A DNA stretch of 64,000 bases, from the NCBI RefSeq assembly GCF_038719015.1, contig NZ_CP152276.1, positions 3,799,501 through 3,863,500 of the forward strand, in the 5' to 3' direction. This document shows positions 14,625 through 32,616 of this stretch, piece after piece. Position 1 is the stretch's first letter. Every line of letters begins with the position of its first letter. The DNA is from Nguyenibacter vanlangensis (GTDB taxonomy: Bacteria; Pseudomonadota; Alphaproteobacteria; Acetobacterales; Acetobacteraceae). The notes under the pieces were generated by a model. That model worked only from the letters and a program-made list of their open reading frames with translations, was not told the origin of the DNA and did not search any database. The position numbers and the translations under genes are program-made.

Positions 14625-15971
14625 CTACGACACCAGGGGCAGGGACGCCTCCAGTCCCGGCACCGCGGCATGCGCTTCCAGTTGCCCGCGCCGGATCGCA
14701 TGCAGGCGCAGATAGGCAAGCAGCCCCAGCGGAATCACCAGCGCCATGGCATAGCCCGGCGTCATCGGGTCCTGTGTCCGGGCGATCAGCCAGGCGGTCA
14801 CCGGCTGGGTCAGGCCGCCGAAACTGGACACCGCCAGCGCATAGACGATCCCGAAGGCGAAGGAGCGGCCGCGATGGCCCAGCGCCTCCAGCATCGCCTG
14901 CCAGATCCCCACGGCCATGATGCTGGCCAGCAGGAACATGCCGATATTCAGCGCCAGTTGGCTGGCCAGCCCCGGCCGGTGGATCGCGTCGTAATACAGC
15001 GGCAGGCTGGCGGCGGCGGTCAGCAGCCCGACCAGGATAAAGGGCGTCCGCCGCCCCGGCCAGCGTATGGCAATGAAAATTCCCGCCAGCATGCCCACCA
15101 CGCCGGCGGCCAGGCCCGCCGCCATGCCCGTCATCGCGGTCGCGGGCGGCAGATGCAGGACCGACACCGCGTAGCTCACGCCGAAATTCCGCAGATAGGT
15201 GCTGATCGTGATGCTGGTGATGGCCAGGAAGACGAACGGAATGACCGGCCACAGCGATGCCGGCTCGCCCGACATGAACTCACCCGAGGGGGACTCACCC
15301 GGCACGGCTCCGGCCGGCGGCGGCGCGGCGGCCTGATGGGCGACGGCGGAACGCCGCAGCACCAGCCCGACCGGCAGGATCGCCAGCCCGGCCAGGAACG
15401 GCACCCGCCATCCCCACGCGTACAGCGCATCGTGCGACAGCACCAGCGACAGCACCAGCCCCAGCAGGACCGCCAGCAGCGACCCCAGCAACTGGGTCAT
15501 GTATTGCAGCGTGCCGAACACCCCGCCCAGCCGCCCCGGCGCGGCGCTGAAGATCAGCGCGGTCGCCGGCCCCACCTCGCCGCCGTCGGAAAACCCCTGC
15601 AGCAGCCGGGCAATGATGACGGCAACCGGCGCCAGCGTGCCGATCACGCGGGTCGACGGCGTCACCGCCAGCAGGAACGACCCCGCGGCCATCATCGCAA
15701 AGGTCAGCATCAGCGCCGGCCGCTGGCCATGCGTGCGCGCATACCGCCCGATCACCACCGCGCCCAGCGGCCGCAGCACGAAGCCCACGGCAAAGGTCAT
15801 CAGCGAAAGCAGCAGGCTGATCAACCGGTTCCCGTTGGGAAAGAAGGCATGGCCGATCATCGGCGCAAAGAACGCATAGGCCATGAAATTATAGAATTCG
15901 AGAAAATTCCCGACACAGGCGGCGGCGATGATGGCGGGCAGGGAACGGCCCCTTTCAACCGGCTCAGGCAT
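14625..15971 (-). CDS. MFS transporter, metabolite:H+ symporter type (citrate/tricarballylate-like)
   Basis: 448 residues from the ATG at 15971 (MPEPVERGRSLP); the frame is open further upstream but not conserved. About 12 spans. GNFLEFYNFMAYAFFAPMIG and RPLGAVVIGRYARTHGQRPAL are characteristic of the MHS group (citrate, tricarballylate, proline/betaine, shikimate symporters). A cytoplasmic loop carries a threefold in-frame 15-bp repeat (15261-15305; SGE-containing pentapeptides). It lies 149 bp downstream of the M81 gene, so it is probably the last gene of the minus arm, and would import a carboxylate-type product or substrate of that pathway. Confidence 0.87.
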   Translation of the reverse strand: MPEPVERGRSLPAIIAAACVGNFLEFYNFMAYAFFAPMIGHAFFPNGNRLISLLLSLMTFAVGFVLRPLGAVVIGRYARTHGQRPALMLTFAMMAAGSFLLAVTPSTRVIGTLAPVAVIIARLLQGFSDGGEVGPATALIFSAAPGRLGGVFGTLQYMTQLLGSLLAVLLGLVLSLVLSHDALYAWGWRVPFLAGLAILPVGLVLRRSAVAHQAAAPPPAGAVPGESPSGEFMSGEPASLWPVIPFVFLAITSITISTYLRNFGVSYAVSVLHLPPATAMTGMAAGLAAGVVGMLAGIFIAIRWPGRRTPFILVGLLTAAASLPLYYDAIHRPGLASQLALNIGMFLLASIMAVGIWQAMLEALGHRGRSFAFGIVYALAVSSFGGLTQPVTAWLIARTQDPMTPGYAMALVIPLGLLAYLRLHAIRRGQLEAHAAVPGLEASLPLVS

Positions 15972-16120
15972 CTTCGGTCTCCTCGGACGATCTGCCGGCG
16001 GGCGGCGGCGCAACGCAGGCCGGCTCCCGATATGGCCACAGCCATCATTCCGGTGCAAACACGAATGCATGCGGCATCACCCCGCCGCCATTGCCCCTCG
16101 TCCCCCTCGGGGCGCGCCGC

Positions 16121-17602
16121 TCAGCCCGTCCCGGCAAACGGGTCTGCCACATGCGGCCACAGCGGCGCGCGCGCCCGGGGCAGGCGCAGCGCCGTCATGT
16201 CGGGCACCACGCAGCCGGCGACCGGAACGAAGACGACGTCGTCCGCGATCGCGGCGAAGGCGTTGTAGAAATGCTGCGCCGATTTCACGACGACGGCATC
16301 CTTGTCCGCCAGCGTAATACCCATGTTGCCGAACACGTCCGGCGAGAAGACCTGCTGCCGGCGCGCGGTCACGACGATGTCGATCCCGTCCACCGCAATC
16401 CACGCGCTCCGGCCCATATAGGCCGCGCCGCCGCTCAGTCCGGTCTGCACCAGATTGTCCGAACAGCGCCGCACATGGGCCGTCACGTCGATCGGATCGC
16501 CCGATGCCGGGCCGCATTTCCCTCCCAGCCGCAGCGGAAACGTCGCGCCTTCGCCCGCTTCGGTGCAGAACGCGACGGCAGCCGGGTCCCAGATGCAGCC
16601 CAGCGCCACGTTCGTCACACCATGCGCCAGCAGGTCACGCAGGATGATCGTATTGTCCGACGGCGCGCCCCCGCCCGCATTGTCCGACACGTCGGCGATC
16701 ACCAGCGGCCTGGCGGGCCTGGACGCGGCGCGCGCGGCAATGCGCGCCCGCGCCGCGTCCATCGTCAGGCCGGACGGCACGCTCGCCGCCCGCATGGCCC
16801 AGATCTCCCGGCCCAGCGTCCGGGCCAGCGCCGCCGCCCGGTCCGCGTCCCCATCGGCGATCACCAGCATCTTCGCCCCGACATCCGGCACGTCGGCCCA
16901 GGGAAATCCATGGACGAACGAAACCGACAGGATGCCGTCCTTGCCCTCCAGCGCCGTCATGCGATCGACGAAGGCGCGCACCGGCCCGTGCGGCGTGCGC
17001 CAGATCCCCAGCATCCGGCAGTCGTGATACGCCATGACCGGCCGGATCGCCCCCGCCGCCGTGCGCACCGCCAGCCAGTACAGCTCGGCCGAACGCTCCC
17101 GGATATCGTCGTGCGGATATTCCTTGTAGGTGACGATCAGGTCGGCCTGTTCGCGCATCGGCTCCGTCAGGTGGCAATGCAGGTCCAGCACCGTGCCCAC
17201 CACGGCCTCCGGCCCGGCCGCAGCCCGCACATGGGCCAGCACGTCGCCCTCGCAATCGTCGTATCCCACGGCCACCATCGCGCCATGCATCGACAGCAGC
17301 ACGATATCGACCGGCAGCGCCGCCTTCAGGTCGCCGACGACCAGGTCGCGCAGCTCTTCATGGACCGATGCCGGCGTACGGCCCCCGGGCTGGGCGAAGC
17401 TGCAGATGCTCTCGACGACCTCGTGCCCCCCGGCCGCCGCCATCTCCCGCCAGGTCCGCAGCGGCAGGGTGGCCGGCGTCGCGGTGGCCAGGCTGCCCCC
17501 GGTCCGGTGCCATTCCCGCGCGCCCATGAAGGCACCCCGCCCCGTGACGATCGGCGAGAACGTATTGGTTTCCGTCCCCAATGTGGCAATGAAGATCTTC
17601 AT
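16121..17602 (-). CDS. M81 family metallopeptidase (MlrC-like), paralogue 1
   Basis: 493 residues. The N-terminus MKIFIATLGTETNTFSP is the hallmark of the M81/MlrC family, whose founder cleaves linearised microcystin. Also visible are LSMHGAMVAVGYDDCEGD, a probable zinc motif VLDLHCHLTEPM, and DVSDNAGGGAPSDNT followed by a C-terminal domain (GRSAWIAVDGIDIVV). Probably a cytoplasmic zinc amidohydrolase acting on small peptides or amides with unusual residues. It is 12 bp downstream of the CobW-type GTPase gene, part of a minus-strand operon with a D-aminoacylase. A second paralogue is at 31138-32616. Confidence 0.9.
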   Translation of the reverse strand: MKIFIATLGTETNTFSPIVTGRGAFMGAREWHRTGGSLATATPATLPLRTWREMAAAGGHEVVESICSFAQPGGRTPASVHEELRDLVVGDLKAALPVDIVLLSMHGAMVAVGYDDCEGDVLAHVRAAAGPEAVVGTVLDLHCHLTEPMREQADLIVTYKEYPHDDIRERSAELYWLAVRTAAGAIRPVMAYHDCRMLGIWRTPHGPVRAFVDRMTALEGKDGILSVSFVHGFPWADVPDVGAKMLVIADGDADRAAALARTLGREIWAMRAASVPSGLTMDAARARIAARAASRPARPLVIADVSDNAGGGAPSDNTIILRDLLAHGVTNVALGCIWDPAAVAFCTEAGEGATFPLRLGGKCGPASGDPIDVTAHVRRCSDNLVQTGLSGGAAYMGRSAWIAVDGIDIVVTARRQQVFSPDVFGNMGITLADKDAVVVKSAQHFYNAFAAIADDVVFVPVAGCVVPDMTALRLPRARAPLWPHVADPFAGTG

Positions 17603-17614
17603 GTCTCTCTCCCG

Positions 17615-18601
17615 TCATGCCTCTCCCGTGGTCCCGGGCGGCACGCAGCCATCCATGTCCGCCGCGATGGCGGCGCAGTCGATGCGGCCCCGGCGGCCGA
17701 TGAAGACCAGGCGCGTGCCGTCCGCGCCGGCCGCGCGCGCCGGGGCCGGCCCGACCGTTACCCGCTGGCCCACCATCTGGAACAGCAGGGGCGCCGCCTC
17801 CCGCCCATGCAGGCGCAAGATCCCCTTGGCCCGCAGGATCGTGGCCGCATGGCGCTGGATCGCCGCCTGGAACGTCCCGAAATCCAGGGCCCGCGCGCTC
17901 CGCCAACTGACCGAGGCGAACAGCGACGACGCATCCGCGCCATCCTCGGCCCGAAACCGCGCCCCCTGGCGTGGCACCGTCGCGCGCGCATGGCCCGGCG
18001 CGGCCGCCAGCAGCAGCCCCGGCAGGTCCGCCGCGTCGGCCGGGCGCAGGATCAGGTCCGCCCGCTTGCGGGCATGCAGCGCCGCCAGGACCCGCTCCAA
18101 CACGGCGCCGGACAGCAGGTCCGTCTTCGACAGCACCACCAGGTCCGCATCGCGGATCGACGCGGCGCGCAGCGGATCGTCGAAATAGCCCCCGTCGGCG
18201 GCCATGTCGGCGGCCATGTCGGCGGCATCCGCGACGCAGACCACGGCCTCCAGCGCCGCGGCTTGCCAGATCACCGGGTCCAGCAGCGCATCGCGCACCG
18301 CGCCGATCCGCGACACGCCGCTGCATTCGACCAGCACGGCATCCGGCGGGTCCGGCCGCGACAGCACCATCCGGATCGACGCCAGCAGGTCGCCCTGCAG
18401 CGAACAGCAGACGCACCCGTTCTTCAGCGTGACGATCCGCTCGCCGGCCTGTTCGATCAGGTCGGAATCGATGGCCAGCGCCCCGAAATCATTCACCAGC
18501 ACCGACAGGCGCAGCGGCGCGCACCGGTTGACGATGCGGTTGATCAGGCTGGTCTTTCCCGCCCCCAGAAAGCCGCCCACCACCACGACCGGAACCGCCA
18601 T
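17615..18601 (-). CDS. CobW/COG0523 family GTP-binding metallochaperone-like protein
   Basis: 328 residues from the ATG at 18601, just before the P-loop (VVVVGGFLGAGKTSLINRI); upstream codons are antisense to spacer. It carries the metal motif NGCVCCSLQGDL (CxCC), the guanine motif LSKTDLL and a C-terminal CobW_C domain. COG0523 proteins deliver metals, mostly zinc or cobalt, to client enzymes. Lying between two likely metallohydrolases (M81 and D-aminoacylase), it may load one of them; this is inference. A 12-bp in-frame repeat (18195-18231) gives DMAADMAAD. Confidence 0.9.
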   Translation of the reverse strand: MAVPVVVVGGFLGAGKTSLINRIVNRCAPLRLSVLVNDFGALAIDSDLIEQAGERIVTLKNGCVCCSLQGDLLASIRMVLSRPDPPDAVLVECSGVSRIGAVRDALLDPVIWQAAALEAVVCVADAADMAADMAADGGYFDDPLRAASIRDADLVVLSKTDLLSGAVLERVLAALHARKRADLILRPADAADLPGLLLAAAPGHARATVPRQGARFRAEDGADASSLFASVSWRSARALDFGTFQAAIQRHAATILRAKGILRLHGREAAPLLFQMVGQRVTVGPAPARAAGADGTRLVFIGRRGRIDCAAIAADMDGCVPPGTTGEA

Positions 18602-18620
18602 GGCGGCACCTCCCGGCGCG

Positions 18621-20105
18621 CTAATGCCGCCGCCCCCGGACGGGCCGTCCGGGGGCGGCATCGCGCCGCAGCGTCCCATCGTCGATCACCGGCTGGCCAT
18701 TGACCAGCAGATGGCGCACGCCCTCCGACGGCCGGTTCAACGCCGCGAAATCGGCCCGGTCGCCGATCGTCCGGTCATCGAAGACGCACAGATCGGCATC
18801 GCACCCTTCCTGCAACCGTCCCTTGCGCCGCATTGCGGGGGCGGCGGGCGCGACGATGCTGGCCGGCAGCCACGAACATTTGGCCATGGCCTCCATCAGC
18901 GACAGCATGCCGCGCTCGCGCATATAGACGCGCAGGAACCGGGCGAACGTGCCCGACGAACGCGGGTGCGACACCGCATCGGCGGGCAGGGGCCACGCAT
19001 CGCCGCCATAGACCGTGCCGTCGGGCAGGGTCCAGGGCATGGCGTCCGATGCGATGATCCCGCCCGGATACAGCACCGACACGTCCAGCAGGTCCCGATG
19101 CCGCGCATCGCCCTCGACATCCAGGAAATGCCACAGCACCAGGTTCTCGGGCCGCTCGGCCCGCGCCTGCAGCAATTCGGCGCGGCTGCCGATCCGCCGC
19201 CCGTCATCCAGCCGCTGCAGCGCGTCATAGCCGCGGCCGGTCCGCTCGGGAAAGGCCGGATCGGCGAAGAACGGCGCGCCGATCACCGTCGACGCCACCC
19301 CGTACGGATAGGCCTCCACCGTCACCTTCAGCCCCTGCGCTTGCGCGGTGCGCACCAGGTCCGCCGCGCGTTCGACATCCATCAGGCTGGTACTGTTGAA
19401 ATGGCAGATATGCATGCGCGCGCCGGTCGACCCGGCATAGCCGATCAGCCGCGTATAGGCCTCGATCGAACTGCGCGGATCGATGTTCGACGCATAGGCG
19501 ACATGGGTATAGGTCGGCACGTCGTACTCGGCCGCCAGGCTGCAGATCCGCGAAATCTCCTTCACCCCCGCGCCGGGGACATAGGCATTCGGGATGCCGA
19601 TCCCCACGCCGCCCTCATCCAGCCCCTGCCGCACGCGCGACAGGATGTCCTCCAGCTCCGCATCGCCGGCCACGGTCTCGACCCAGCGCGGATCGTCCAT
19701 GCAGCGTCCCATGAAGCTCAGCGACGGCTCCAGCGTCCGTCCGGTCATCGCCGCGATACGCGCGAAGACCCAGCCGACCGACACGCCGTAATTCAGCACG
19801 CGGCCGCTGCTTTCCTGCGCGTCGTACCAGCCCGCCACCGGCAGGCTGCCGACCTCGCATTCCAGCGTGGTCGTCACGCCGTCGAACGCCTGCATCCGGT
19901 CCGCCGGAACCGATTGCCCATGGGCATGGATATCGATGAATCCGGGCGCCACGACCAGCCCCGTGGCGTCGATCTCGCGCAGGGCGGACCCCGTGACGCC
20001 CCCCACCCGCATGATCGCGCCATTGCGGATCGCAACGTCGCCGATCGCATCCAGCCGCGTCTCGGGGTCGATCAGCCGTCCCCCCCGGATGATCAGGTCG
20101 TACAT
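18621..20105 (-). CDS. N-acyl-D-amino-acid deacylase (D-aminoacylase) family amidohydrolase
   Basis: 494 residues. Amidohydrolase fold: MYDLIIRGGRLIDPETRLD, the HxH metal motif in GFIDIHAHGQ, GVTTTLECEVGSLPVAGWY with the conserved Cys-Glu, then THVAYAS, ICHFNSTS (metal histidines) and IIASDAMPW (catalytic Asp). The family removes acyl groups from N-acyl-D-amino acids or dipeptides with D-residues. Length matches. The stop is 20 bp from the GTPase start, so the genes form an operon with M81. No signal peptide, so cytoplasmic. Confidence 0.9.
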   Translation of the reverse strand: MYDLIIRGGRLIDPETRLDAIGDVAIRNGAIMRVGGVTGSALREIDATGLVVAPGFIDIHAHGQSVPADRMQAFDGVTTTLECEVGSLPVAGWYDAQESSGRVLNYGVSVGWVFARIAAMTGRTLEPSLSFMGRCMDDPRWVETVAGDAELEDILSRVRQGLDEGGVGIGIPNAYVPGAGVKEISRICSLAAEYDVPTYTHVAYASNIDPRSSIEAYTRLIGYAGSTGARMHICHFNSTSLMDVERAADLVRTAQAQGLKVTVEAYPYGVASTVIGAPFFADPAFPERTGRGYDALQRLDDGRRIGSRAELLQARAERPENLVLWHFLDVEGDARHRDLLDVSVLYPGGIIASDAMPWTLPDGTVYGGDAWPLPADAVSHPRSSGTFARFLRVYMRERGMLSLMEAMAKCSWLPASIVAPAAPAMRRKGRLQEGCDADLCVFDDRTIGDRADFAALNRPSEGVRHLLVNGQPVIDDGTLRRDAAPGRPVRGRRH

Positions 20106-20190: not shown

Positions 20191-20232
20191 TTAAGGGACT
20201 GCGGCATGCGCCCGGCACAAAATCCCTTAACG

Positions 20233-20272
20233 AATAAAAGTCTTTTTGCTTCTTTTTCTTCAGAAAAAGAAG
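20233..20272 (-). terminator. AT-rich hairpin element, copy C (3' end of TonB-dependent receptor)
   Basis: A perfect 10-bp stem CTTCTTTTTC / GAAAAAGAAG (20249-20272), identical with copy B, beginning about 15 bp after the receptor stop when read on the minus strand. It would end the receptor transcript before the D-aminoacylase gene. The 181-bp gap is otherwise filled by copy D and short spacers. Confidence 0.65.
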
Positions 20273-20286
20273 AAATACCCCACCCA

Positions 20287-22740
20287 TCAGAAATCACACC
20301 CGAACCGCCCGCCGACAAAGCGGGGCTCGCCGGAAATCCCCATCAGCACGGTGGTCGCCGCCACCGGCACGACGTCGATATAATGCCGGTTCAGGATGTT
20401 CGACGCATAGGCGGTGACGAACCAGCGCCCGTTCCGCGGCCTGAGGGTGATGCTGCCGCCCATCAGGAAATAGGCCGGCACGACATAGACGCCGCTTCCG
20501 CGCGGCTGCAGGCTGTCCTGCAGGTCGCGATAGGAATAATTCCCCTCGAAGGTCAGCGTATAGCGGCGGAACACCGGCCGCGTCTCGTACGACACCTGCC
20601 CGTTCAGCGTCAGCTTGGGCATGCCCATGTCGGCGCCGTCATAATTGGTATAGACCGGGCTGTAGAAACCGGTCCTGGTAAAGTTCGCCGCCACGGCGGC
20701 CGAATTCACCTGCTGGTAATCGGTGTATTTGCCGCGCAGATAGCCGATGCTCTGCGACAGGGTCAGGCCGCGGACCGGATTGGCCTCGATCTGGAATTCC
20801 GTGCCCCACAACTGCGCATGCGGAATATTGATATAGGACCCGTACGTCCCCGGCGCCCCCTCGGGGTTATAGGCCCCCAGCGCGCCCGGAATCACCAGGG
20901 TGCCCAGCATCTGCTTGTCGTGGTAGTCGTCCCAGAACAGCGCGCCGTTCAGGCGCAGCCGCCGGCGAAAGAAATCGCTCTTGAATCCGACTTCATAGGC
21001 CAGCACCCATTCGGGCTTGAAAGGCTGGATCTGCACGTTCGCGACCGTCGTGTTGGTGGTAAAGCCCCCGGGCTTCACGCCGCGCGCTATATCGGCATAC
21101 AGCAGCAGGTTCGGCCGGGCCTGCCAGGACAGGCCCACCTTGCCGGAAAACTGGTTGGTCAGCGCGCCATGGGTCGGAAACGGATTGGCGCTGGCGCAGG
21201 GCGCTGGATCGGCGCCGCAATGCGCCCTCTTGGTCGCCGAGGGCAGATAATAATATTGCGCGACCGTATCGCCGACCAGGCTGCGCGTATCCGACTGGTG
21301 CTGCAGCCCGAAGGTGAATTTGACCGTATGGGTGATGTGATAATCCAGCGTCGCGAACTGGCTGAAATTCTCCTGCGGCTGGTTGTGGAAACTGTCGCGG
21401 ATATAGCCCGCGGTATCGCTCATGTCGAACCAGTTCGCCCCGAAGGCGCGCGCCCGGTTATAGTACAGACCCGCAATCCACTCCAGCCGCCCGTCCAGCA
21501 CCGGCCGCCCTTTCAGGCTGACCTCCTGCGAAAAGACGTTGCTGTTGCCGGCAAAGAAACTGTCCCCGGACCGAAAGGCCGACGCATCGCGATCGACATA
21601 TTCATGCCGCTGCTGCTGGCTGAAATTGCCGATCGTCTGCAGCGTGGCCCAGCCCAGGTCGCGCGCCGCCTTCAGGGTAATCCCCCACGTCACGTCGTCA
21701 TAGGACGGGATCGAATTCGGCGCGATGCCCACCAGCTTGGCAAAGGCGGGATTCAGGCTCCATCCCGTGGCATAGATGTTCCGGTCGCGCGGCATGTGGC
21801 TGACCGCGCTGAAATCATCCAGGATAAACCCGGCGGTGGCGTCGGATTCGTCCATCGACCAGTTCGCAATCAGGTCGATGTCGGTCTTCGCGTCGGGCTG
21901 CCAGGCCAGCCGGCCGCGCAGCGCCCCCAAATTGGCATTGCCGATCGATTGTCCGGTGACGCGGTTGAACCGATAGGCGCCGCCCTGCACGGTCTGGCCG
22001 GCAAGGCGATATTGCAAGCTGTTGGTGATCGGGCCCGAGACATAAAGCGTGGTCTTGCTCCTGTCCCGCGTCGCCAGATCCTCCGACGCACCGTAATGCA
22101 GCGTCCTGGTCGGCGCACGGCTTTCGATCCGCACTTCGCCGCCCGTATCGGCCATCCCGTGGGTAAAGCCCACCGGCCCGGGATCGACGCCGACAGTGGC
22201 GATGTCGAACATCTGCCCGCTGCTCATCGGCGACAGCGGATAGGCCACGCCGTCGAAATAGGTCATGACCGACGGCATGTTGTTCTGGGTATAATCCTCC
22301 AGCCCGATCCCGCGCAGATAGAATGACGGCGCGTTCGATCCGCTTTCCGTCTGGATCGTCAGGTTCGGCACCAGTTTCTGCAGATCCATGACAGTGTTGA
22401 CATGGTGCGAGATCAGCGCCTCCTCGCTCAGCATCGTCGTCGATCCCGCCTGGTGCTGCTGCGCGTCGAAACCGAACCGGCTGGCATGGGCGACCACGTC
22501 GATCGCTTCCGGACTGGCCGCCGCCGCGCGGCGCCGCGCCGGGCGGACCGGGGCCTGCGCCACCGCGACCGCCCCGCCGTCCGCCGCCGGGCGCCGATGA
22601 TGGCCGGGCTTATGGATGGGCCTCCTGCCGTCGGCCGTCGCGGCCAGGGCCCCCGGCACCATCTCCCCCCCGATCGGCAGGCAGGCCAGTGCCGTCGTCA
22701 CGGACAGCACCGTCAATAATCCGGCTCGACCTGATCTCAT
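20287..22740 (-). CDS. TonB-dependent outer-membrane receptor
   Basis: 817 residues. A signal peptide (RAGLLTVLSVTTALACLPIGG, cleavage near ALA at residue 33) and a possible TonB box (IDVVAHA, near residue 84) precede a plug domain with DLQKLVPNLTIQTES and FYLRGIGL. The long beta-barrel ends in phenylalanine (GRFGCDF), as outer-membrane proteins do. It imports a large or scarce substrate in an energy-dependent way. The RpiR-type regulator lies upstream and the D-aminoacylase operon downstream, so the ligand is likely the substrate of that pathway and not necessarily iron. Confidence 0.93.
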   Translation of the reverse strand: MRSGRAGLLTVLSVTTALACLPIGGEMVPGALAATADGRRPIHKPGHHRRPAADGGAVAVAQAPVRPARRRAAAASPEAIDVVAHASRFGFDAQQHQAGSTTMLSEEALISHHVNTVMDLQKLVPNLTIQTESGSNAPSFYLRGIGLEDYTQNNMPSVMTYFDGVAYPLSPMSSGQMFDIATVGVDPGPVGFTHGMADTGGEVRIESRAPTRTLHYGASEDLATRDRSKTTLYVSGPITNSLQYRLAGQTVQGGAYRFNRVTGQSIGNANLGALRGRLAWQPDAKTDIDLIANWSMDESDATAGFILDDFSAVSHMPRDRNIYATGWSLNPAFAKLVGIAPNSIPSYDDVTWGITLKAARDLGWATLQTIGNFSQQQRHEYVDRDASAFRSGDSFFAGNSNVFSQEVSLKGRPVLDGRLEWIAGLYYNRARAFGANWFDMSDTAGYIRDSFHNQPQENFSQFATLDYHITHTVKFTFGLQHQSDTRSLVGDTVAQYYYLPSATKRAHCGADPAPCASANPFPTHGALTNQFSGKVGLSWQARPNLLLYADIARGVKPGGFTTNTTVANVQIQPFKPEWVLAYEVGFKSDFFRRRLRLNGALFWDDYHDKQMLGTLVIPGALGAYNPEGAPGTYGSYINIPHAQLWGTEFQIEANPVRGLTLSQSIGYLRGKYTDYQQVNSAAVAANFTRTGFYSPVYTNYDGADMGMPKLTLNGQVSYETRPVFRRYTLTFEGNYSYRDLQDSLQPRGSGVYVVPAYFLMGGSITLRPRNGRWFVTAYASNILNRHYIDVVPVAATTVLMGISGEPRFVGGRFGCDF

Positions 22741-22956: not shown

Positions 22957-23814
22957 TCATCCGATTCCATCGATATCCTTCCGCAGCGCCTCGATATTCG
23001 CCAGCCGCTCGGCCACGCCCGGTCCCATGGATTGCTCCAGCAGCGACACCAGGCAGTTCGCGACGCACAGCGCCGTCGAATAGCTGTCGAAAATCCCCGC
23101 GCCATCCACGACGCAGCGCAGCGTCAGGACGGACGGGTTGGGGCTGGCCGGCGCGCCGATATGCGTCAGTTGCAGGACCTTGGCGTTCCGTTCCAGGGCC
23201 GCGCGCATAAGCTGCGTCAGCACCGGCGGCCGGCGCCGCATGCCCACGACGACCAGCAGGTCCTCCGCCCCCATCGTCGCGACATCCTCGCCCATCGCCA
23301 TGCCAAGCTGCGGCAGGACCTGCACATTGTCGTGCAGCAGCGACAATTGCGCCCGCAGATACAGCGCGATCAGCACCGAATTGCGAAAGGCCACGATGCG
23401 GATCTTCCGCGCCTCCCGCAGCATCTGTACCGCCGCATGCAGCGTCTCGCCGGAAATCTCGGCCATCGTCCGGCGCAGATTCAGGATTTCATGTTCGGCA
23501 TACCGCCCCAGGTCGTAATCGACGTCGCCGATCCGGTGGCGGCGCTGCAACGCCACCAGCGGCGACCCCAGCGACGCCTGGTCGCGGGCATGGGTGCGGG
23601 CCTGCTGGTAATTCTCATATCCCAGGCGACGGAAGAAGCGCGCCGCAGTCGGGTTCGACACATTGGCCCGCGCCGCAAGCTCGCTGGCGGTAAATCCCGA
23701 GAAATTCCCGTCCAGTTCCAGAATCACCGATGCCAGGCGCTGTTCACCGGCCGTCAGCGCGTCATGAATCTTCATGATCCGGGCCCCGATCGAAACATCT
23801 GAGTCGTCGTTCAT
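22957..23814 (-). CDS. MurR/RpiR family transcriptional regulator
   Basis: 285 residues. The N-terminal HTH_6 domain (about 10-85: ALTAGEQRLASVIL, FTASELAARANVSNPTAARFFRRLGY) is followed by a SIS sugar-phosphate-binding domain (about 125-265: RIVAFRNSVLIALYLRAQL, DLLVVVGMRRRPP). RpiR proteins usually sense phosphorylated sugars or amino sugars. It sits at the centre of the two-armed locus, upstream of the receptor gene and divergent from a 17-kb plus-strand gene train, so it is the obvious pathway regulator. Confidence 0.9.
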   Translation of the reverse strand: MNDDSDVSIGARIMKIHDALTAGEQRLASVILELDGNFSGFTASELAARANVSNPTAARFFRRLGYENYQQARTHARDQASLGSPLVALQRRHRIGDVDYDLGRYAEHEILNLRRTMAEISGETLHAAVQMLREARKIRIVAFRNSVLIALYLRAQLSLLHDNVQVLPQLGMAMGEDVATMGAEDLLVVVGMRRRPPVLTQLMRAALERNAKVLQLTHIGAPASPNPSVLTLRCVVDGAGIFDSYSTALCVANCLVSLLEQSMGPGVAERLANIEALRKDIDGIG

Positions 23815-25584: not shown

Positions 25585-26781
25585 ATGTCCGTCCAGCCGA
25601 AATACGCGGTCTTCGCCCTGCTCTATCTCGGCTGGTGCGTGTCCTATCTCGACCGCGCGGCAATGACCCTGTCCGTCCCCGCCATGCTGCACGACATTCA
25701 CATGTCGCCCACGCGGCAGGGGTTCGTGCTGGGCGTGTTCTATCTGGGCTATTCCTGCATGCAGATACCCGGCGGATGGCTGGCCGACCGCTTCGGGTCG
25801 AAACCCGTCGTCCTGGCCGGACTGGTCCTCTGGTCGCTGTTCACGCTCGGCACTGGACTGGTCGCGACGGCCTCGGCGCTCCTGCTCGTGCGGCTGCTCT
25901 TCGGCATGGGCGAGGGGATCTTTCCCGCCGCCAGCATCAAGGCCCTCTACGACGTGTTCCCCGCCGCCGCCCGGGACAAGGCGCCCTCGGCGCTGATGTC
26001 CTCCAACTATTTCGGCTACCTCGTCGCCCCCGTCCTGCTGCTGCCGCTGCTGGCCTGGGGCGGCTGGCGCCGGCCCTTCCTGGTCATGAGCATCGCGGGC
26101 CTCGCCTGTGCTGCGGCCTATCTGGTGCTGGCCCCGGGCCGCGCGCGGCGATCCGCCCCGCGTGCCCCCGCATCCGGCCGCATGTTCGCCGACGTGCTGC
26201 GGGTGCGGGGCATCCGGCGGCTGATGGGGGTGTGGTTCCTGGTCAGCTTCATCAACAAGGCGCTGGAAAGCTGGATGCCCACTTACCTGCTGCATGAACG
26301 GGGCGTGTCGCTCAAAGCGGCGGGCGTGCTCCTGACGCTGCCCTATGTCGCGGCGACCCTGGCGGCGGCTTCCGGCGGGTGGATCATGGCGCGCTGGTTC
26401 CGCGACCGCGAACATCATTTCATGTCGGCCAACATCATATTGTCCTGCGCGGCCTTGCTGGCCATGGCGCACGCCCCCGGCGTGAACGGCGTCGTGGCGG
26501 CGGAAACCTGCCTGTATTTCTTCAAATCCCTCGTCTTCGCCGCCATCCTCTCCCTGCCCGCGCGCATGCTGTCCGCCGATCGCGCCGGATCGGGCTTCGG
26601 GCTGATCAATTTCGGCGGCCAGTTCGCCGGCTTCGTCGCCCCGCCGGTCATCGGCGCCCTGCTGGGCGCCTTTCACAGCTATCCGCTGGTGTTTCTCAGC
26701 CTGGTGGGCGCCGGGGCGCTGGCGCTCGTCTTCAATGCCGCCTGCGGGCGCTTCCCGTCCGCCTTGCCCCTAGCGGAGTGA
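25585..26781 (+). CDS. MFS transporter, second of a tandem pair
   Basis: 398 residues. YLGWCVSYLDRAAMTLSVPAM and GYSCMQIPGGWLADRFGSKPVV resemble sugar-acid (ExuT/GudP-like) ACS transporters. It starts 8 bp after the preceding MFS gene and ends 5 bp before the amidase. The two MFS proteins differ in sequence, so they probably take different substrates, for example parent compound and a breakdown product. Confidence 0.87.
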   Translation: MSVQPKYAVFALLYLGWCVSYLDRAAMTLSVPAMLHDIHMSPTRQGFVLGVFYLGYSCMQIPGGWLADRFGSKPVVLAGLVLWSLFTLGTGLVATASALLLVRLLFGMGEGIFPAASIKALYDVFPAAARDKAPSALMSSNYFGYLVAPVLLLPLLAWGGWRRPFLVMSIAGLACAAAYLVLAPGRARRSAPRAPASGRMFADVLRVRGIRRLMGVWFLVSFINKALESWMPTYLLHERGVSLKAAGVLLTLPYVAATLAAASGGWIMARWFRDREHHFMSANIILSCAALLAMAHAPGVNGVVAAETCLYFFKSLVFAAILSLPARMLSADRAGSGFGLINFGGQFAGFVAPPVIGALLGAFHSYPLVFLSLVGAGALALVFNAACGRFPSALPLAE

Positions 26782-26786: not shown

Positions 26787-28280
26787 ATGGAACTCTGTGA
26801 CGCGACCGCCCTGGACCTGCTGCATCTGTTCCGCACCCGCCGGGCCTCGCCGGTCGAAGCGCTCGATGCCTGCCTGGTACGGACCGACCAGGTCAATCCG
26901 GCCGTCAACGCCGTAGTGGCCGAGGACCGCGCCGCCGCCCGCGCCGCCGCCCGCCGGGCCGAGGCCGCCTGGCATCGCGGCGAACCCGACGGCGCGCTCT
27001 GCGGCCTGCCGCTGGGGGTCAAAGACACCCACGTCACCGCCGGCCTGCGCACCACCTTCGGCAGTCCCCTGTTCCGCGACCACGTCCCCGCCGCCGACCA
27101 GGCGCTGGTGGCCCGGCTGCGCGCGGCCGGCGCCGTCATCATGCACAAGACCAACACGCCGGAATGGGCCGCCGGCGGCAACACGCGCAATCCGGTCTAT
27201 GGCGCCACCGGCAATCCGTTCGACCCCGCCCTGAACGCCGCGGGGTCCTCCGGCGGCTCCGGCGTGGCGCTGGCCTGCGGCATGGCCACCCTGTGCACCG
27301 GCTCCGACACGGGCGGCAGCCTGCGCAACCCGGCTGCCTATAACGGCATCGTGGGCATGCGCCCCTCGGCCGGCCTGGTGCCCAGCGAAACGCGGCCGCA
27401 TGGCTGGTCCTGCCTGCCGGTCGACGGCCCGATGGCGCGTACCGTGGCCGACACCGCCCTGCTGCTCGGCACCATGGCCGGCGACCAGGCCTACGACCCG
27501 CTGGCCTACACGCTGCCCGGCCGCGCGGTCCGCGGCGGGGCCGGCGCCTATACGCCGCTCGCCCCGATCGACCTCGCCGGCCTGCGCCTCGCCGCGACCG
27601 AGGATTTCGGCACGGCCCCCACGGAATCGATCGTCCGCCGGGCCTTTCGCGACAAGCTGCCCGCCATCGCGGCCCTGTTCGGCGCGGCGGACCTGGCATC
27701 GCCCGACTGCACGGGTGCCGACGACGCCTTCGCCGTGCTGCGCGGCGCCATGTTCCTCGCCGCCCACGGCGCGCGCTATCGCGACCATTACGATCAGCTC
27801 GGCCCGAACATCCGCGCGAATGTCCAAGAGGCCCTGTCCTACACGCTCCAGGACCATGCCCGCGCCGCGACCGTCCAGACCAGGATCTACCGCGCCTACC
27901 AGGCGTTCTTCACCCGCTACGACATCCTGGTCAGCCCGGCCGTCACCGTCAGTCCCCGTCCCTGGACCGAACTCTACCCGACCGAGATCGACGGCGCGCC
28001 GACCCGCAGCTATTTCCACTGGCTGGCGCTGGCCTACATGGTCACGCTGTCCGGCCATCCCGCCATCAGCATCCCCGTCGGCACCGATGCGCGCGGCATG
28101 CCCTTCGGCCTGCAGATCGTCGGGCCGCGCGGCGGCGACGCAATGCTGCTGCGGGTCGCCGCCGCGATCGAATCCGCCTTCGCCGCCACGCCGGACCTGT
28201 GCCGCCCGGTGCCCGACATCGCGGCCCTGCGCCGCATGCCCCCCATCGCCGCCCGCCCCGGCTTCGGCGATCCCGAATGA
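26787..28280 (+). CDS. Amidase (amidase signature family)
   Basis: 497 residues. The Ser-cisSer-Lys triad is visible: lysine in GLPLGVKDTH, and GSSGGSG and GSDTGGSLRNPAAYNG with the cis-Ser and nucleophile. C-terminal PAISIPVGTDARGMPFGLQIVG is standard. Hydrolyses carboxamides; some members act on aryl or D-amino-acid amides. No GatB neighbour, so a catabolic role is more likely than Glu-tRNA amidation. The stop codon is inside the first copy of a 17-bp duplication that carries the start of the next gene. Confidence 0.92.
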   Translation: MELCDATALDLLHLFRTRRASPVEALDACLVRTDQVNPAVNAVVAEDRAAARAAARRAEAAWHRGEPDGALCGLPLGVKDTHVTAGLRTTFGSPLFRDHVPAADQALVARLRAAGAVIMHKTNTPEWAAGGNTRNPVYGATGNPFDPALNAAGSSGGSGVALACGMATLCTGSDTGGSLRNPAAYNGIVGMRPSAGLVPSETRPHGWSCLPVDGPMARTVADTALLLGTMAGDQAYDPLAYTLPGRAVRGGAGAYTPLAPIDLAGLRLAATEDFGTAPTESIVRRAFRDKLPAIAALFGAADLASPDCTGADDAFAVLRGAMFLAAHGARYRDHYDQLGPNIRANVQEALSYTLQDHARAATVQTRIYRAYQAFFTRYDILVSPAVTVSPRPWTELYPTEIDGAPTRSYFHWLALAYMVTLSGHPAISIPVGTDARGMPFGLQIVGPRGGDAMLLRVAAAIESAFAATPDLCRPVPDIAALRRMPPIAARPGFGDPE

Positions 28281-28306
28281 GCGCACCCCCCGAATGAGCG
28301 CACCCC
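28273..28306. repeat. 17-bp direct duplication across a stop/start junction
   Basis: CCGAATGAGCGCACCCC occurs at 28273-28289 and again at 28290-28306. The first copy holds the amidase stop (TGA in AATGA), the second the GntP start (ATG at 28294). Removing one copy would give a 4-bp ATGA overlap, the coupling seen elsewhere in the window. The duplication adds an out-of-frame ATG at 28277. Confidence 0.9.
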
Positions 28307-29622
28307 TCGTCGTCGCCGTCGGCGCGCTGGCGATCCTGGCGGTCATCGTCCTGATCGCCCGCTTCCGGCTGGAACCGATCATGGTGCTGTTCGGCGTGGC
28401 GGTGCTGGTGGCCGTCGCGACCGGGCGGATGCCCTCGGCCGGCGTCGCCTCGTTCGAAGCCGGCGCGGGCCACGCGCTGGGGCATATCGCCTTCGTCATC
28501 GCCTTCGGCACGATGCTGGGCCGCATCGTGTCCGAAACCGGCGCCGCCGAACGCATCGCCCGCACCCTGGTCGCGCGCTTCGGGCCGCGCAACATCCATT
28601 GGGCGATGATGACGGTCGGGCTCGCGGTGGGGCTTCCGGTCTTCTTCGATGTCGGGTTCGTGCTGCTGGCCCCGCTGGCCTTCGTCGCGGCACGGGCGGC
28701 CGGACAGCCGATCCTGCTGGCGGCGCTGCCCCTGGCCGCCAGCCTGTCGGCCGCGCACGCGCTCATGCCGCCGCATCCGGCGATCATGCTGGCCATCCAG
28801 GCCTATGGCGCCGGCGTGCCCCGCATGGTCCTGCTGGGGGCCATGGCCATGGTGCCGGCCGCGATCGTCGCCGGCCCGCTCTTCGCGGCCCTGGTCGTCC
28901 CGCGCCTGCGCGTGACCGGCGTCAGCACGCTCGAGGCCCAGTTCCTCGAACGCGCGACCGACCGCCTGCCGCCCTTCGGCCTCAGCCTGCTGGCCGTGCT
29001 GATGCCCGTCCTGCTGATCCTGGGCGGCATGCTTGCCGCCCGCCTGCTGCCCGGCGCCGGCGGACGCTGGCTTGCCGATTTCGCCGGCAGCACCGATATC
29101 GCGCTGGTTCTCTCCACGCTCTTCGCCTGCGTCGCCCTGGGCACCGCGCGGGGCATGGGCGGGCGCGACCTGGCCCGCCATCTGCATGACTGCCTGGCGC
29201 CGATCGCCTTCGTCGTGCTGCTGGTCGGCGCCGGCGGCGGCTTCGGCCGCGCCCTGATCGATTCCGGCATCTCGGGGGTGCTGACCGCGCTGGCCCTGCG
29301 GATGCACATGCCCGTGCTGCTGCTGGCCTGGGGGCTGGCGGCGATCATCCGTCTGGCCACCGGCTCGGCCACCGTGGCGATGAGCACCGCCGCCGGCATC
29401 CTCGCCCCCCTGGCGCATCAGGCCGGCCTCGCGGCGCCCGAGGCCCTCGTCCTGGCCACCGGCGCCGGATCGGTCGCCTTCGGGCCGGTCACCGACCCTG
29501 TCTTCTGGCAGGTCAAGGAATATCTGGGCCTCTCGGTCGGCCAGACCCTGCTGACCTGGTCCTGCATCGAGACGCTGATTTCCCTCATGGCCCTGGCCGC
29601 CGCCATGATATGTAATATATAA
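28294..29622 (+). CDS. GntP family permease
   Basis: 442 residues, about 12-14 spans. GLPVFFDVGFVLLAPLAF, SAAHALMPPHPAIM and RLATGSATVAMSTAAGIL are GntP hallmarks. Family members carry gluconate, other hydroxy acids or D-serine (DsdX) with protons. Next to a D-threonine-aldolase/D-serine-dehydratase-like gene that begins 3 bp after its stop, a D-hydroxy-amino-acid substrate is attractive; gluconate is the alternative. Confidence 0.9.
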   Translation: MSAPLVVAVGALAILAVIVLIARFRLEPIMVLFGVAVLVAVATGRMPSAGVASFEAGAGHALGHIAFVIAFGTMLGRIVSETGAAERIARTLVARFGPRNIHWAMMTVGLAVGLPVFFDVGFVLLAPLAFVAARAAGQPILLAALPLAASLSAAHALMPPHPAIMLAIQAYGAGVPRMVLLGAMAMVPAAIVAGPLFAALVVPRLRVTGVSTLEAQFLERATDRLPPFGLSLLAVLMPVLLILGGMLAARLLPGAGGRWLADFAGSTDIALVLSTLFACVALGTARGMGGRDLARHLHDCLAPIAFVVLLVGAGGGFGRALIDSGISGVLTALALRMHMPVLLLAWGLAAIIRLATGSATVAMSTAAGILAPLAHQAGLAAPEALVLATGAGSVAFGPVTDPVFWQVKEYLGLSVGQTLLTWSCIETLISLMALAAAMICNI

Positions 29623-29624: not shown

Positions 29625-30701
29625 ATGAGTTACACAGACCAGGAGACGACGATGCCCTTCGCCACCCTGCCGACGCCCTGCGTCCTGATCGATATCGACC
29701 GCGTCACCGCCAACATCCGCCGGGCGCAGGATTATGCCAACTCACACGGCTTCGCCCTGCGCCCTCACGTCAAAACACATAAAATCCCAACTTTCGCCCA
29801 CATGCAGGTCGCCGCCGGCGCCCGCGGCATCACCTGCCAGAAACTCGGCGAAGCCGAGATCATGGCCGACGCCGGCCTCGACGACATCCTGGTCAGCTAC
29901 AACATCATCGGCTTCGACAAACTCGCTCGCCTCGCCGCCCTGGCCCGCCGCGTGAAACTGACCGTCGCCGCCGACAGCGCCCACACCATCGCCGGCTATC
30001 TCCGCACGGCCCGCGCCGCCAACGTACAATTCGACATCCTGATCGAATGCGACACCGGCGGCGGCCGCTGCGGCGTCCAGACCCCGGACGAAGCCGTGGC
30101 ACTGGCGCAAATGCTCGACGGCGGCACCGGGGCGCGGTTCGGCGGCGTGATGACCTATCCGGCTGCCGGCAAGACCGCCCTTGCGGCCGAATGGCTCGCC
30201 GTCGCCTCGGCACGCTTCGACGCCGTAGGCATCCCCCTGCCGGTCGTCTCCGCCGGCGGCACCCCGGACCTGTGGCGCGCGCACACGCTTCCCGGCCTGA
30301 CGGAATACCGACCCGGTACTTATATCTACATGGACCGCTCGCAGGTCGCCGCCGGCGCGGCCCGGCTCGACGAATGCGCGCTGACCGTTCTCTCCACCAT
30401 TGTCAGCAAACCAACGCCGAACCGCGCCATCATCGACGCTGGCACCAAAACCCTGACCAGCGATCTGCTGGGCATGGACGGGTTCGGCCATGTCCTGTCC
30501 TGTCCCGACGCGACGCTCACCGGACTCAGCGAAGAGCACGGTATCCTGCGCGGCGGCGGCCTGCCGCGGATCGGCGACCGGGTCCGCATCGTGCCCAATC
30601 ATGCCTGCGTCGTCAGCAACCTGTTCGACAAGGTCTATGTCGTATCCGGTGATCGCGTCGTCGACGCCGTAACCGTCGCTGCGCGCGGATGCGTGACCTG
30701 A
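29625..30701 (+). CDS. D-threonine aldolase / D-serine dehydratase-like PLP enzyme
   Basis: 358 residues. Fold-type III PLP enzyme with an alanine racemase N-terminal domain; the PLP lysine is in RPHVKTHKIP. Metal site residues typical of the family appear in VPNHACVVSN (His-x-Cys), near the C-terminus. It cleaves D-3-hydroxy-amino acids to glycine and an aldehyde, or dehydrates D-Ser/D-Thr. The downstream RidA protein fits the dehydratase option. A shorter start at M10 (MPFATLPTPCVL) is possible and better matches the family. Confidence 0.88.
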   Translation: MSYTDQETTMPFATLPTPCVLIDIDRVTANIRRAQDYANSHGFALRPHVKTHKIPTFAHMQVAAGARGITCQKLGEAEIMADAGLDDILVSYNIIGFDKLARLAALARRVKLTVAADSAHTIAGYLRTARAANVQFDILIECDTGGGRCGVQTPDEAVALAQMLDGGTGARFGGVMTYPAAGKTALAAEWLAVASARFDAVGIPLPVVSAGGTPDLWRAHTLPGLTEYRPGTYIYMDRSQVAAGAARLDECALTVLSTIVSKPTPNRAIIDAGTKTLTSDLLGMDGFGHVLSCPDATLTGLSEEHGILRGGGLPRIGDRVRIVPNHACVVSNLFDKVYVVSGDRVVDAVTVAARGCVT

Positions 30702-30730
30702 TTCTGACGCCAGTGAAACAGGACAAGCCA

Positions 30731-31093
30731 ATGGTCAAGAAAATATTCGGGGCGGCCCATGTTCCCCTCTCCCCGGCAGTGCGTGCGGGTGATTTTGTCT
30801 TTGTTTCCGGCCAGGTCCCGGTCCGGGATGGCAAGATCGTTGCCGGCGGCGTGATCGAACAGACGCATGCGGTGATGGAGAACATCGCCTCCGCATTGCA
30901 ACTGGCCGGATGCGCGATGACCGACGTCGTCAAGACCTTCGCCATTCTCAGCGACGCGAAGGATTTCGATGCTTTCAACCAGGCTTATGCCGCCTGGTTT
31001 CCGTCCGAGCCACCGGCCCGCACGACCGTCGAGGCCAAATTGATGATCGATATCGCGGTCGAGATCGAAGTTGTCGCCTATCGTCCGCTCTAG
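30731..31093 (+). CDS. RidA family protein (imine/enamine deaminase)
   Basis: 120 residues from MVKKIFGA at 30731; an upstream ATG at 30689 overlaps the previous gene and gives a non-conserved tail. Family motifs are DFVFVSGQVPV, the Glu/Gln-rich helix EQTHAVMENI and the catalytic arginine in PPARTTVEAK. RidA proteins hydrolyse reactive 2-imino acids made by PLP dehydratases, so it probably protects against products of the preceding enzyme. Plus-strand base skew changes from C-rich to G-rich at about this gene. Confidence 0.92.
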   Translation: MVKKIFGAAHVPLSPAVRAGDFVFVSGQVPVRDGKIVAGGVIEQTHAVMENIASALQLAGCAMTDVVKTFAILSDAKDFDAFNQAYAAWFPSEPPARTTVEAKLMIDIAVEIEVVAYRPL

Positions 31094-31137
31094 GCCTGTA
31101 AATCCGAAATCACACGGGAACCTGACGGGGTCATATC

Positions 31138-32616
31138 ATGCGGGTGTTTGTCGCGTCCCTGGCGACTGAAACCAATACGTTCTCGCCGATACCCACCGAT
31201 CGGTCGAGTTTCCTGTCCGCCTTCTATGCGCCGCCGGGGGCGCATCCGCCAACCCCCACCTTGTGCTCGGCCGTCTTTCCGGTCCTGCGCGATCGGGCGC
31301 GGCGGGACGGATTCACATTGATCGAAGGGACCGCAACATGGGCCGAGCCGGGCGGCCTGGTGCAGCGCGAGACGTTCGAAAGCCTGCGCGACGAGATATT
31401 GGCGCAGTTGCGTGCCGCATTGCCGGTAAATGCGGTCGTGCTGGGGCTGCATGGCGCCATGGTGGCGCAAGGCGAGGACGATTGCGAGGGCGACCTGATC
31501 GCGCGCGCACGTGCGATCGCCGGGCCGGACACGGTGATCGGCGCGACCTTCGATCCGCATAGTCACCTGACTCCGAAACGCGTGGAGAATCTCGATATCC
31601 TGAACGCCTTCCTGGAATTTCCGCACACGGATTTCGTCGCGCGCGCCGAACAGGCCGTGGATCTGGTGCTGCGGGCGGCCCGGCGCGAAATCCGGCCGGT
31701 CATATCCACGTTCGACTGCCGGATGATCGACGTCCTGCCGACCAGCCAGCAGCCGATGCGCGGCTTCGTCGACCGCCTGCGCGCGTTGGAAGGCCAGGAT
31801 CGGATCCTCAGCGCCTCGATCATTCACGGCTTTCTGGCGGGCGACGTGCCCGAACTGGGGACGCGGATCGCGATCGTCACCGACAATGCGCCGGAACGCG
31901 GCAAGCGGCTGGCCCGGGAAACGGGCAACGCCCTGTTCGCCATGCGCGGTACGACCAGTATGCCGAAACTGGGGATCGGGCCGGCATTGGTCCGTGCCGC
32001 CGGGGCCGCCGCGACCGCCGGCGCGCCTGTGGTGCTGGCCGACATATGGGACAATCCCGGCGGCGGCGTGGCGGGCGACGGCACATTGATACTCGATGCG
32101 ATGATGAAGGCCGGGATGGACGACATCGCGGTCGGGACGATCTGGGATCCGATCGCGGTCATGTTCTGCCTGGCCGCGGGCGAGGGCGCGCGGATCGCCT
32201 TGCGGTTTGGAGGCAAAAGCGGTCCCGGCGCCGGAGAACCGATTGATGCCGACGTGATCGTGCGGCGTGTCGTAGCCGAAGCCTGGCAGAGTTTCGGCGC
32301 CAGCCGGGTACCGCTGGGCGCAAGCGCGGTGGTGCGACCGGCCGGCACGCACATCGACATCATCCTGAACACCAACCGTACCCAGGCTTTCGACCCAGAT
32401 ATATTCGCCGGCCTGGATATCGATATCGCCGCCAAGCGCTATCTGCTGGTGAAATCGACAAATCATTTCCACGCGGCGTTCAAGCCGATCGCCGCTGAAA
32501 TTCTATACGTCGATGCCGGCACCCATTATCCGTCCGATCCGCGAAGGACGCGATACCGCAAGCTGACGCGCGCCATCTGGCCGCGCCACGAAGATCCGCA
32601 CGGGGCCGAGACATAG
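31138..32616 (+). CDS. M81 family metallopeptidase (MlrC-like), paralogue 2
   Basis: 492 residues, start MRVFVASLATETNTFSP. It shares with paralogue 1 the blocks LHGAMVAQGEDDCEGD, the DxHxHLT metal motif (TFDPHSHLTP), STFDCRMIDVLPT and ADIWDNPGGGVAGDGT, and the C-terminal NHFHAAFKPIAAEI. The two are clearly diverged, so not a recent duplication. The gene follows RidA by 44 bp and probably ends the plus arm of the locus; 181 bp separate it from the aldolase. Confidence 0.9.
   Translation: MRVFVASLATETNTFSPIPTDRSSFLSAFYAPPGAHPPTPTLCSAVFPVLRDRARRDGFTLIEGTATWAEPGGLVQRETFESLRDEILAQLRAALPVNAVVLGLHGAMVAQGEDDCEGDLIARARAIAGPDTVIGATFDPHSHLTPKRVENLDILNAFLEFPHTDFVARAEQAVDLVLRAARREIRPVISTFDCRMIDVLPTSQQPMRGFVDRLRALEGQDRILSASIIHGFLAGDVPELGTRIAIVTDNAPERGKRLARETGNALFAMRGTTSMPKLGIGPALVRAAGAAATAGAPVVLADIWDNPGGGVAGDGTLILDAMMKAGMDDIAVGTIWDPIAVMFCLAAGEGARIALRFGGKSGPGAGEPIDADVIVRRVVAEAWQSFGASRVPLGASAVVRPAGTHIDIILNTNRTQAFDPDIFAGLDIDIAAKRYLLVKSTNHFHAAFKPIAAEILYVDAGTHYPSDPRRTRYRKLTRAIWPRHEDPHGAET

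Follow-up and report, generated by a model that had tools for sequence, protein, structure and literature searches.

A two-module catabolic locus of Nguyenibacter vanlangensis, probably under one RpiR regulator, with a predicted N-deacylase of family M81

Do two arms of genes around one regulator gene serve one catabolic pathway, and for what kind of compound? The question is raised by a locus of thirteen genes at positions 14625-32616 of a 64,000-nucleotide stretch, called the window here, of Nguyenibacter vanlangensis NZ_CP152276.1 (GCF_038719015.1; Acetobacteraceae). Its minus arm encodes an RpiR-family regulator, a TonB-dependent receptor, a D-aminoacylase-like amidohydrolase, a CobW-type GTPase, the M81 protein M81a and a metabolite:H+ symporter (MHS), and its plus arm encodes two permeases of the major facilitator superfamily (MFS1 and MFS2), an amidase, a GntP permease, a pyridoxal phosphate (PLP) lyase, a RidA protein and a second M81 protein, M81b. 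A sequence-only reading had taken the arms as one pathway that leads from outer-membrane uptake of a D-amino-acid-like compound to a 2-oxo acid or glycine. Our analysis indicates a real and probably co-regulated catabolic locus of two modules, and the prediction that M81b is an N-deacylase is its point of most general interest. On balance we lean towards a single RpiR-controlled regulon, formed by the joining of two older modules, that would take up, unmask and degrade an amide-masked D-amino acid or amino-sugar acid.

Control of the two arms

The Acetobacteraceae genome G174 (4.4 Mb) keeps 12 of the 13 locus genes in two fetched stretches (L035 and L060), in which the MHS symporter has no match. 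The arms are rearranged there onto a single strand with an aldehyde dehydrogenase gene and other genes in between, and the plus-arm operon starts with genes for a diaminopropionate ammonia-lyase, an M20 enzyme of the hydantoinase/carbamoylase family and a CN-hydrolase (L035:14197-17601) that were not seen at the window's locus. Comparing ten stretches, mostly non-coding, we found a near-palindrome common to the divergent region between the RpiR and MFS1 genes of the window, and, in G174, the promoters of the RpiR gene and of the plus-arm operon; the two RpiR proteins are 52% identical. A pattern built from all three sites, which is partly circular, has no further match in either genome. With a pattern taken from the two orthologous RpiR promoters and at most 2 mismatches, the best second site is the head of the G174 plus-arm operon (1 mismatch; three others have 2), and the single match in the window's genome, one contig of 4.75 Mb, is the site at 23870-23887. 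The operator pattern had 0 matches in 100 shuffles of the window. No second operator was found before the TonB receptor. Since G174 has the same palindrome before each arm despite the rearrangement, shared control is supported, and one RpiR regulator probably governs both arms, as had been suggested earlier. At related loci, 29 of 40 divergent promoters of M81b and RidA contain an RpiR-like palindrome, GAAA-N5-TTTC, with no more than 1 mismatch (~1 expected by shuffling), a count that overstates independence because nearly all of these loci are from related species of Devosia.

Several observations weigh against one regulon. No promoter was called near 23870-23887. The window's RpiR matches the RpiR proteins of the plus-arm modules of Phyllobacterium and Paracoccus over the DNA-binding part only, and two others are unmatched at E 1e-5. 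Amidohydrolase and lyase (at least 47% identity) are both encoded in 11 of the 249 family genomes sampled, and both arms stand at one locus in only two of them, the window's and G174. In eight of the other nine (L044-L048, L050, L051, L053) the lyase is from a different clade and neither RidA nor M81b was found next to it; the ninth, G206, is in short contigs. The co-occurrence that the sequence-only reading wished to see in gene neighbourhoods is thus present in G174 and has a narrow base, and its single pathway holds as far as probable co-regulation goes but is less well supported as an indivisible one, each module occurring alone elsewhere.

The lyase and its M81 partner

The metal pair of the lyase is His-Ala-Cys (PNHAC), which it shares in the alignment with the D-threo-3-hydroxyaspartate dehydratase 3wqc, while 4v15, 7dib and 6qkb have the H-x-D pair of D-threonine aldolases and BhcC. 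A His-x-Cys pair is generally a mark of dehydratases, and an enamine or imine formed by beta-elimination would be expected to pass to a RidA protein. The overall best alignment scores are to D-threonine aldolases, and the relatives in PDB include D-3-hydroxyaspartate aldolase and D-serine dehydratase besides these and 3wqc. The metal pair favours loss of a beta-substituent over retro-aldol cleavage. The earlier assignment to the D-threonine aldolase/D-serine dehydratase family is retained, the aldolase type is discarded on the metal pair, and glycine becomes an unlikely product. Lyase and RidA should together yield a 2-oxo acid and ammonia.

How conserved is the company that this lyase keeps? 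Lyase matches of at least 47% identity are found in 24 of the 249 family genomes, one being a fragment, and we collected 113 lyase loci from 23 family regions, 80 genome contigs and 10 of 262 plasmid records. Neighbours within 10.5 kb were tallied by tblastn with single queries and fixed bit-score limits, so that distant replacements can be missed. M81b is encoded at 76 loci, D-aminoacylase at 6, both at 0 and neither at 31 (73, 6, 0 and 30 of 109 after removal of four duplicates). RidA accompanies M81b at 76 of 76 loci, within 1 kb at 75 of them, and is found at 5 of the 6 D-aminoacylase loci and 9 of the 31 others. The trio of lyase, RidA and M81b recurs in Devosia, Phyllobacterium, Mesorhizobium, Paracoccus and acetic acid bacteria. 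That M81b and D-aminoacylase never stand together suggests that M81b is an N-deacylase. The same role is supported by the surroundings, since genes similar to carbohydrate ABC (ATP-binding cassette) permeases and SDR (short-chain dehydrogenase/reductase) genes occur at 3 of 6 D-aminoacylase loci and 52 of 76 M81b loci, while three loci that encode a polar amino-acid ABC importer lack both hydrolases. The simplest reading of these patterns suggests that M81b would unmask the amino group ahead of the lyase.

Some of the same data caution against this role. Neither deacylase candidate is encoded at 31 of 113 loci, several of which are short contigs or contig ends and many full stretches. Lyases linked to M81b and those linked to D-aminoacylase form separate groups in the tree, so that a small number of replacement events could account for the exclusivity. 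The search for the 80 contig loci started from the window's lyase and favours close kin, and in Devosia the carbohydrate ABC operon is several kb distant and has an RpiR-like gene of its own, which makes the transporter link there loose. Genomes G159 and G236, with lyases of other clades, encode an M81 protein of 48-49% identity ~20-25 kb from the lyase (L066, L067), beyond the counted range.

Of four M81-family genes in the window's genome, two lie at the locus, and 0 of 14 control genomes have any; 7363 of 8000 scored candidates are M81 relatives at E 1e-30. Both proteins carry the two domains that define family M81, DUF1485 and MlrC_C. M81a is 59% identical to the minus-arm-module M81 of Roseomonas, 48% to that of Sulfitobacter and 41-42% to three plus-arm-module M81 proteins, and M81b is 60-67% identical to the plus-arm-module M81 of Phyllobacterium, Nitratireductor and Paracoccus; judged by these identities, they are separate orthologous groups. 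M81b aligns with microcystinase C (7ylq) over nearly the full length (E 6.8e-106), its E11, H105, D139, H141 and H163 falling on the zinc-site residues of MlrC, and the five equivalents are kept in M81a. The residue list is from PMC12474180; the last ligand is numbered otherwise in PMC9982164. Neither protein is the microcystinase MlrC proper (354 and 372 bits against a cut-off of 999 in the NCBIfam exception model), and no mlrA-, mlrB- or mlrD-type partner was found by domain among the locus genes.

Other gene combinations were observed at the related loci. The TRAP-type lyase loci L095 and L140, without M81b, have a PRK09237 amidohydrolase/deacetylase-family gene beside RidA, and L140 adds a creatininase-family gene and a threonine-synthase-like PLP gene; a third, L151, also without M81b, repeats their RidA-RpiR-lyase-TRAP order. 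In Gluconacetobacter tumulisoli a DgaE-family PLP lyase gene (L077:7114-8382; TIGR01437 324 bits, below the cut-off of 385; PDB 7lc0, E 3.6e-75) is directly upstream of GntP-lyase-RidA-M81b. The best model for a kinase at the Paracoccus locus is 2-dehydro-3-deoxygluconokinase, with a score below the model cut-off. In L079, the product of a gene (584 aa) downstream of the trio was suspected to be Edd-like but is a Hint-domain protein.

The minus-arm module, the proposed pathway and its rivals

Orthologues of the amidohydrolase were found in 21 of 249 family genomes, and a CobW-type GTPase gene directly follows in all 21 (the window, G174 and 19 of 19 other fetched regions, L187-L205). The pair is also adjacent on four annotated plasmids, but no CobW gene was seen with the more distant amidohydrolase relatives on two others (46% and 30% identical, Photobacterium and Vibrio), six of 20 matching plasmid records having been examined. 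M81a adjoins the amidohydrolase in 1 of the 19 other regions and in Roseomonas marmotae and Sulfitobacter alexandrii. PDB matches of the amidohydrolase include N-acyl-D-glutamate deacylase 3gip (E 1.6e-25) and PpOngB 9kb1 (E 9.8e-19). The GTPase has the P-loop GFLGAGKT at residue 36 and CVCC at 89, the P-loop and CxCC motif of COG0523, and is not a true cobalamin CobW (TIGR02475, 134.7 bits against a cut-off of 332.1). It is likely a metallochaperone for the amidohydrolase, which would make the two a candidate dedicated chaperone-client pair.

We propose that the compound would enter through the TonB receptor and the inner-membrane permeases (MFS, GntP, MHS). It would be a D-alpha-amino acid that carries an amide mask, e.g. 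an N-acyl group, and has a group at its beta carbon that can be eliminated, and probably an N-acylated beta-hydroxy D-amino acid or amino-sugar acid, between which we see about even chances. The zinc-type hydrolases M81b, M81a and the amidohydrolase, the last served by its own CobW GTPase, would unmask it together with the amidase; the lyase would then eliminate the beta hydroxyl, and RidA would hydrolyse the enamine or imine, so that the 2-oxo acid and ammonia pass into central metabolism. RpiR would repress both arms from the palindrome between them. The earlier idea that a D-amino-acid-like compound is taken up and then handled fits these enzymes and is plausible.

The two kinds of substrate lead to different products. 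Plain use of D-amino acids, in which N-acylated or peptide-bound D-serine, D-threonine or D-3-hydroxyaspartate would give pyruvate, 2-oxobutyrate or oxaloacetate, is possible but less likely than not: the PDB relatives of the lyase act on D-threonine, D-3-hydroxyaspartate and D-serine, some lyase relatives stand with a polar amino-acid ABC importer and RidA or with a dipeptide-type importer and D-aminoacylase, and a kinase for 2-keto-3-deoxygluconate (KDG) would be unnecessary. The carbohydrate-ABC-permease-like gene within 10.5 kb at 51 of the 73 deduplicated M81b loci, loose as this link is in Devosia, and the gluconate-type GntP fit less well. These last features hint at a sugar acid, as do the KdgK-like kinase of Paracoccus and the DgaE-family gene of G. 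tumulisoli, and they agree with one specific type of substrate, an N-acyl 2-amino-2-deoxy-aldonic acid (GlcNAc1A or an isomer) that would be turned into KDG and ammonia as in the ong pathway for oxidised chitin, with M81b in the place of the deacetylase OngB. The ong cluster has the same kinds of regulator, receptor, deacylase, PLP enzyme and RidA (PMC9537276), SDR genes accompany the ABC permeases at related loci, and the genome has two KDPG-aldolase-family and two GH20 genes. We find this specific substrate somewhat doubtful, since the DgaE-like and KdgK-like neighbours each occur at one locus close to the lyase, and the window's genome has 0 matches to the lytic polysaccharide monooxygenase (LPMO) family PF03067, for which the control matched in 1 of 14 genomes. 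No KDG kinase is found among the locus genes, and at E 1e-10 the genome yields a single match, a PfkB gene (42990-43871), 28% identical, that scores as a tagatose kinase. Of the OngB signature residues Ser292, Gln298 and Lys254 (PMC12017989), the amidohydrolase has Thr at the first position and Asn at the third, position 298 being uncertain in an alignment to 3gip, 1m7j and sister D-aminoacylases; at position 292, mapped by motif and not against OngB itself, the D-aminoacylases of the six sister loci carry Thr or Tyr.

The arms could also be two unrelated pathways side by side, with one substrate each and incidental shared control. The amidohydrolase-CobW pair does occur without lyase, RidA and M81b in the fetched stretches of 19 other family genomes and on four plasmids, the plus module occurs without the minus arm in Devosia and others, and M81a and M81b belong to different orthologous groups; yet in G174, where the arms lie apart, each begins with the same operator, and we hold this separation of functions to be rather unlikely. 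Another idea is that the substrates of the hydrolases are ureido compounds that lead to 2,3-diaminopropionate, along the lines of reductive uric acid breakdown. The head of the G174 plus-arm operon would fit, and in C. difficile a D-aminoacylase homologue removes the 2-ureido group before YgeY and YgeX finish the breakdown (PMC12507026). It appears very improbable here, as the window's genome has no match to the G174 diaminopropionate ammonia-lyase at E 1e-20 and no M20 or CN-hydrolase domain is found among the locus genes. We thus continue to lean towards a single regulon for an amide-masked compound.

Gene layout and comparison with known systems

All thirteen genes were recovered at the coordinates and strands given in Table 1 with matching Pfam families, so the gene content and order reported earlier for both arms stand. 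Conservation in G174 and the recurrence of the trio indicate that the arrangement is no chance one.

Table 1. Features of the locus, in window coordinates, with domain and model evidence
Feature	Position	Strand	Evidence
MHS/MFS-type metabolite:H+ symporter, last minus-arm gene	14625-16070	-	Pfam Sugar_tr/MFS_1; best NCBIfam TIGR00883, 230 bits, below cut-off 443
M81a, M81/MlrC-type metallohydrolase, minus-arm-module orthologous group	16121-17602	-	Pfam DUF1485 and MlrC_C
CobW-type (COG0523) GTPase	17615-18679	-	Pfam cobW and CobW_C; GFLGAGKT and CVCC motifs
D-aminoacylase-like amidohydrolase, PRK09061 subfamily	18621-20105	-	NCBIfam NF006560, 744 bits, above cut-off 340
TonB-dependent outer-membrane receptor	20287-22740	-	Pfam Plug; weak NCBIfam hemin-type matches far under cut-off
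RpiR/MurR-family regulator	22957-23814	-	HTH_6 and SIS domains
Candidate RpiR operator ATGAAAATGATTTTTCAT between the divergent arms	23870-23887	+	Near-palindrome
MFS1 permease, D-galactonate/HpaX-like	24218-25576 (refined start)	+	TIGR00893, 292 bits, below cut-off 395
MFS2, another MFS permease of the broad group that includes MFS1	25585-26781	+	TIGR00893, 175 bits, below cut-off 395
Amidase-signature amidase	26787-28280	+	Pfam Amidase, E 7.2e-87
GntP-family permease	28294-29622	+	TIGR00791 gntP, 358.6 bits, above cut-off 292.75
Fold-III PLP lyase, D-TA/DSD1 family	29625-30701	+	Pfam Ala_racemase_N and D-ser_dehydrat
RidA-family protein, predicted imine/enamine deaminase	30689-31093	+	Pfam Ribonuc_L-PSP
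M81b, second M81/MlrC-type metallohydrolase, plus-arm-module orthologous group; proposed N-deacylase	31138-32616	+	DUF1485 and MlrC_C domains

The gaps are 8, 5, 13, 2, -13 and 44 bp from MFS1 to M81b and 50, 12, -59, 181 and 216 bp from MHS to RpiR; the near-zero spacing noted earlier thus applies to the plus arm and to M81a-CobW-amidohydrolase, and fails around the TonB receptor. GntP is closer to gluconate than to D-serine transporters (PRK14984 285 bits, DsdX 225.5 bits, both below their cut-offs). Six locus proteins are 98-99% identical to those on another contig of Nguyenibacter vanlangensis. No RNA family scored above threshold across window 12000-36000. Two intergenic gaps contain 45 identical A+T-rich bases with a hairpin (20229-20273 and 14541-14585), which may be a dispersed repeat or terminator. 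Just before the locus, at 12154-13783, are genes for an ACC (1-aminocyclopropane-1-carboxylate) deaminase (TIGR01274, 558 bits, above the cut-off of 392) and, on the opposite strand, an Lrp-family regulator. A separate carbohydrate locus at 32798-43871 encodes a class I fructose-bisphosphate aldolase, an FGGY pentulose kinase, a UgpC-type sugar ABC transporter and the tagatose kinase, which scores above its model cut-off. We left out these genes past 32798 because of the 181-bp gap and because in G174, Acetobacter fallax and G. tumulisoli the trio was not seen with the aldolase or the FGGY kinase beside it.

Among known systems the locus is closest to the ong pathway, a near relative for a set of genes that the sequence-only reading had matched exactly to no pathway. 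The ong cluster of Pseudoalteromonas prydzensis (PMC9537276, PMC12017989) has an RpiR repressor, TonB receptors, the D-aminoacylase-like deacetylase OngB, the D-serine-deaminase-like PLP enzyme OngC, which also accepts D-serine and D-threonine, and the essential RidA protein OngD, whose role its authors left open (PMC9537276). A MurR/RpiR regulator, a TonB receptor, a D-aminoacylase-family hydrolase, a fold-III PLP enzyme of the same broad family as OngC and RidA are likewise brought together at our locus, probably in one regulon. A search for the PLP enzyme in two Vibrionaceae plasmid records was empty, which says nothing either way. Unlike ong, the locus would import through GntP and MFS permeases, with no SSS-type importer identified among its genes, and it adds two M81 proteins, an amidase and CobW; with no LPMO match in the genome, no KDG kinase match better than the tagatose kinase and no OngB signature found, it is not classed as an ong cluster. 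That RidA is linked here to a lyase of dehydratase type points to imine hydrolysis, which bears on the role of OngD.

The CobW-type protein resembles the COG0523 metal-chaperone GTPases in being a G3E GTPase with P-loop and CxCC that is tied to a single putative metalloenzyme, as Nha3 is coupled to nitrile hydratase (PMC2770081). The client here would be a D-aminoacylase-like amidohydrolase, a pairing absent from the passages of that paper, and our literature search turned up no work treating it. With its 21 of 21 pairing, this system offers a clean way to test if a COG0523 protein works for a single named metalloenzyme.

With D-serine dehydratase, D-threo-3-hydroxyaspartate dehydratase and D-threonine aldolase the lyase shares the fold-III PLP domain and the metal-binding C-terminal domain, and with 3wqc the His-x-Cys pair; what sets it apart is that most of its close relatives neighbour M81b and RidA, a link between M81 and RidA that our literature search did not turn up. 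M81a and M81b, in turn, are like microcystinase C in both domains and the zinc-site residues, and differ in being set in amidohydrolase/CobW or lyase/RidA operons. We tentatively speculate that M81 proteins might mainly be N-deacylases of D-beta-hydroxy amino acids or amino-sugar acids, replacing D-aminoacylase or OngB in an alphaproteobacterial ong-like pathway of dehydratase and RidA, with microcystin breakdown as a recruited side use. If so, the locus would join one M81 protein to a second and to an amidohydrolase with a dedicated CobW metal chaperone. Microcystin degradation is the only worked-out M81 activity in the literature searched, and the locus points to an everyday role, for which the conserved trio and the mutual exclusion of M81b and D-aminoacylase offer a concrete and cheap assay.

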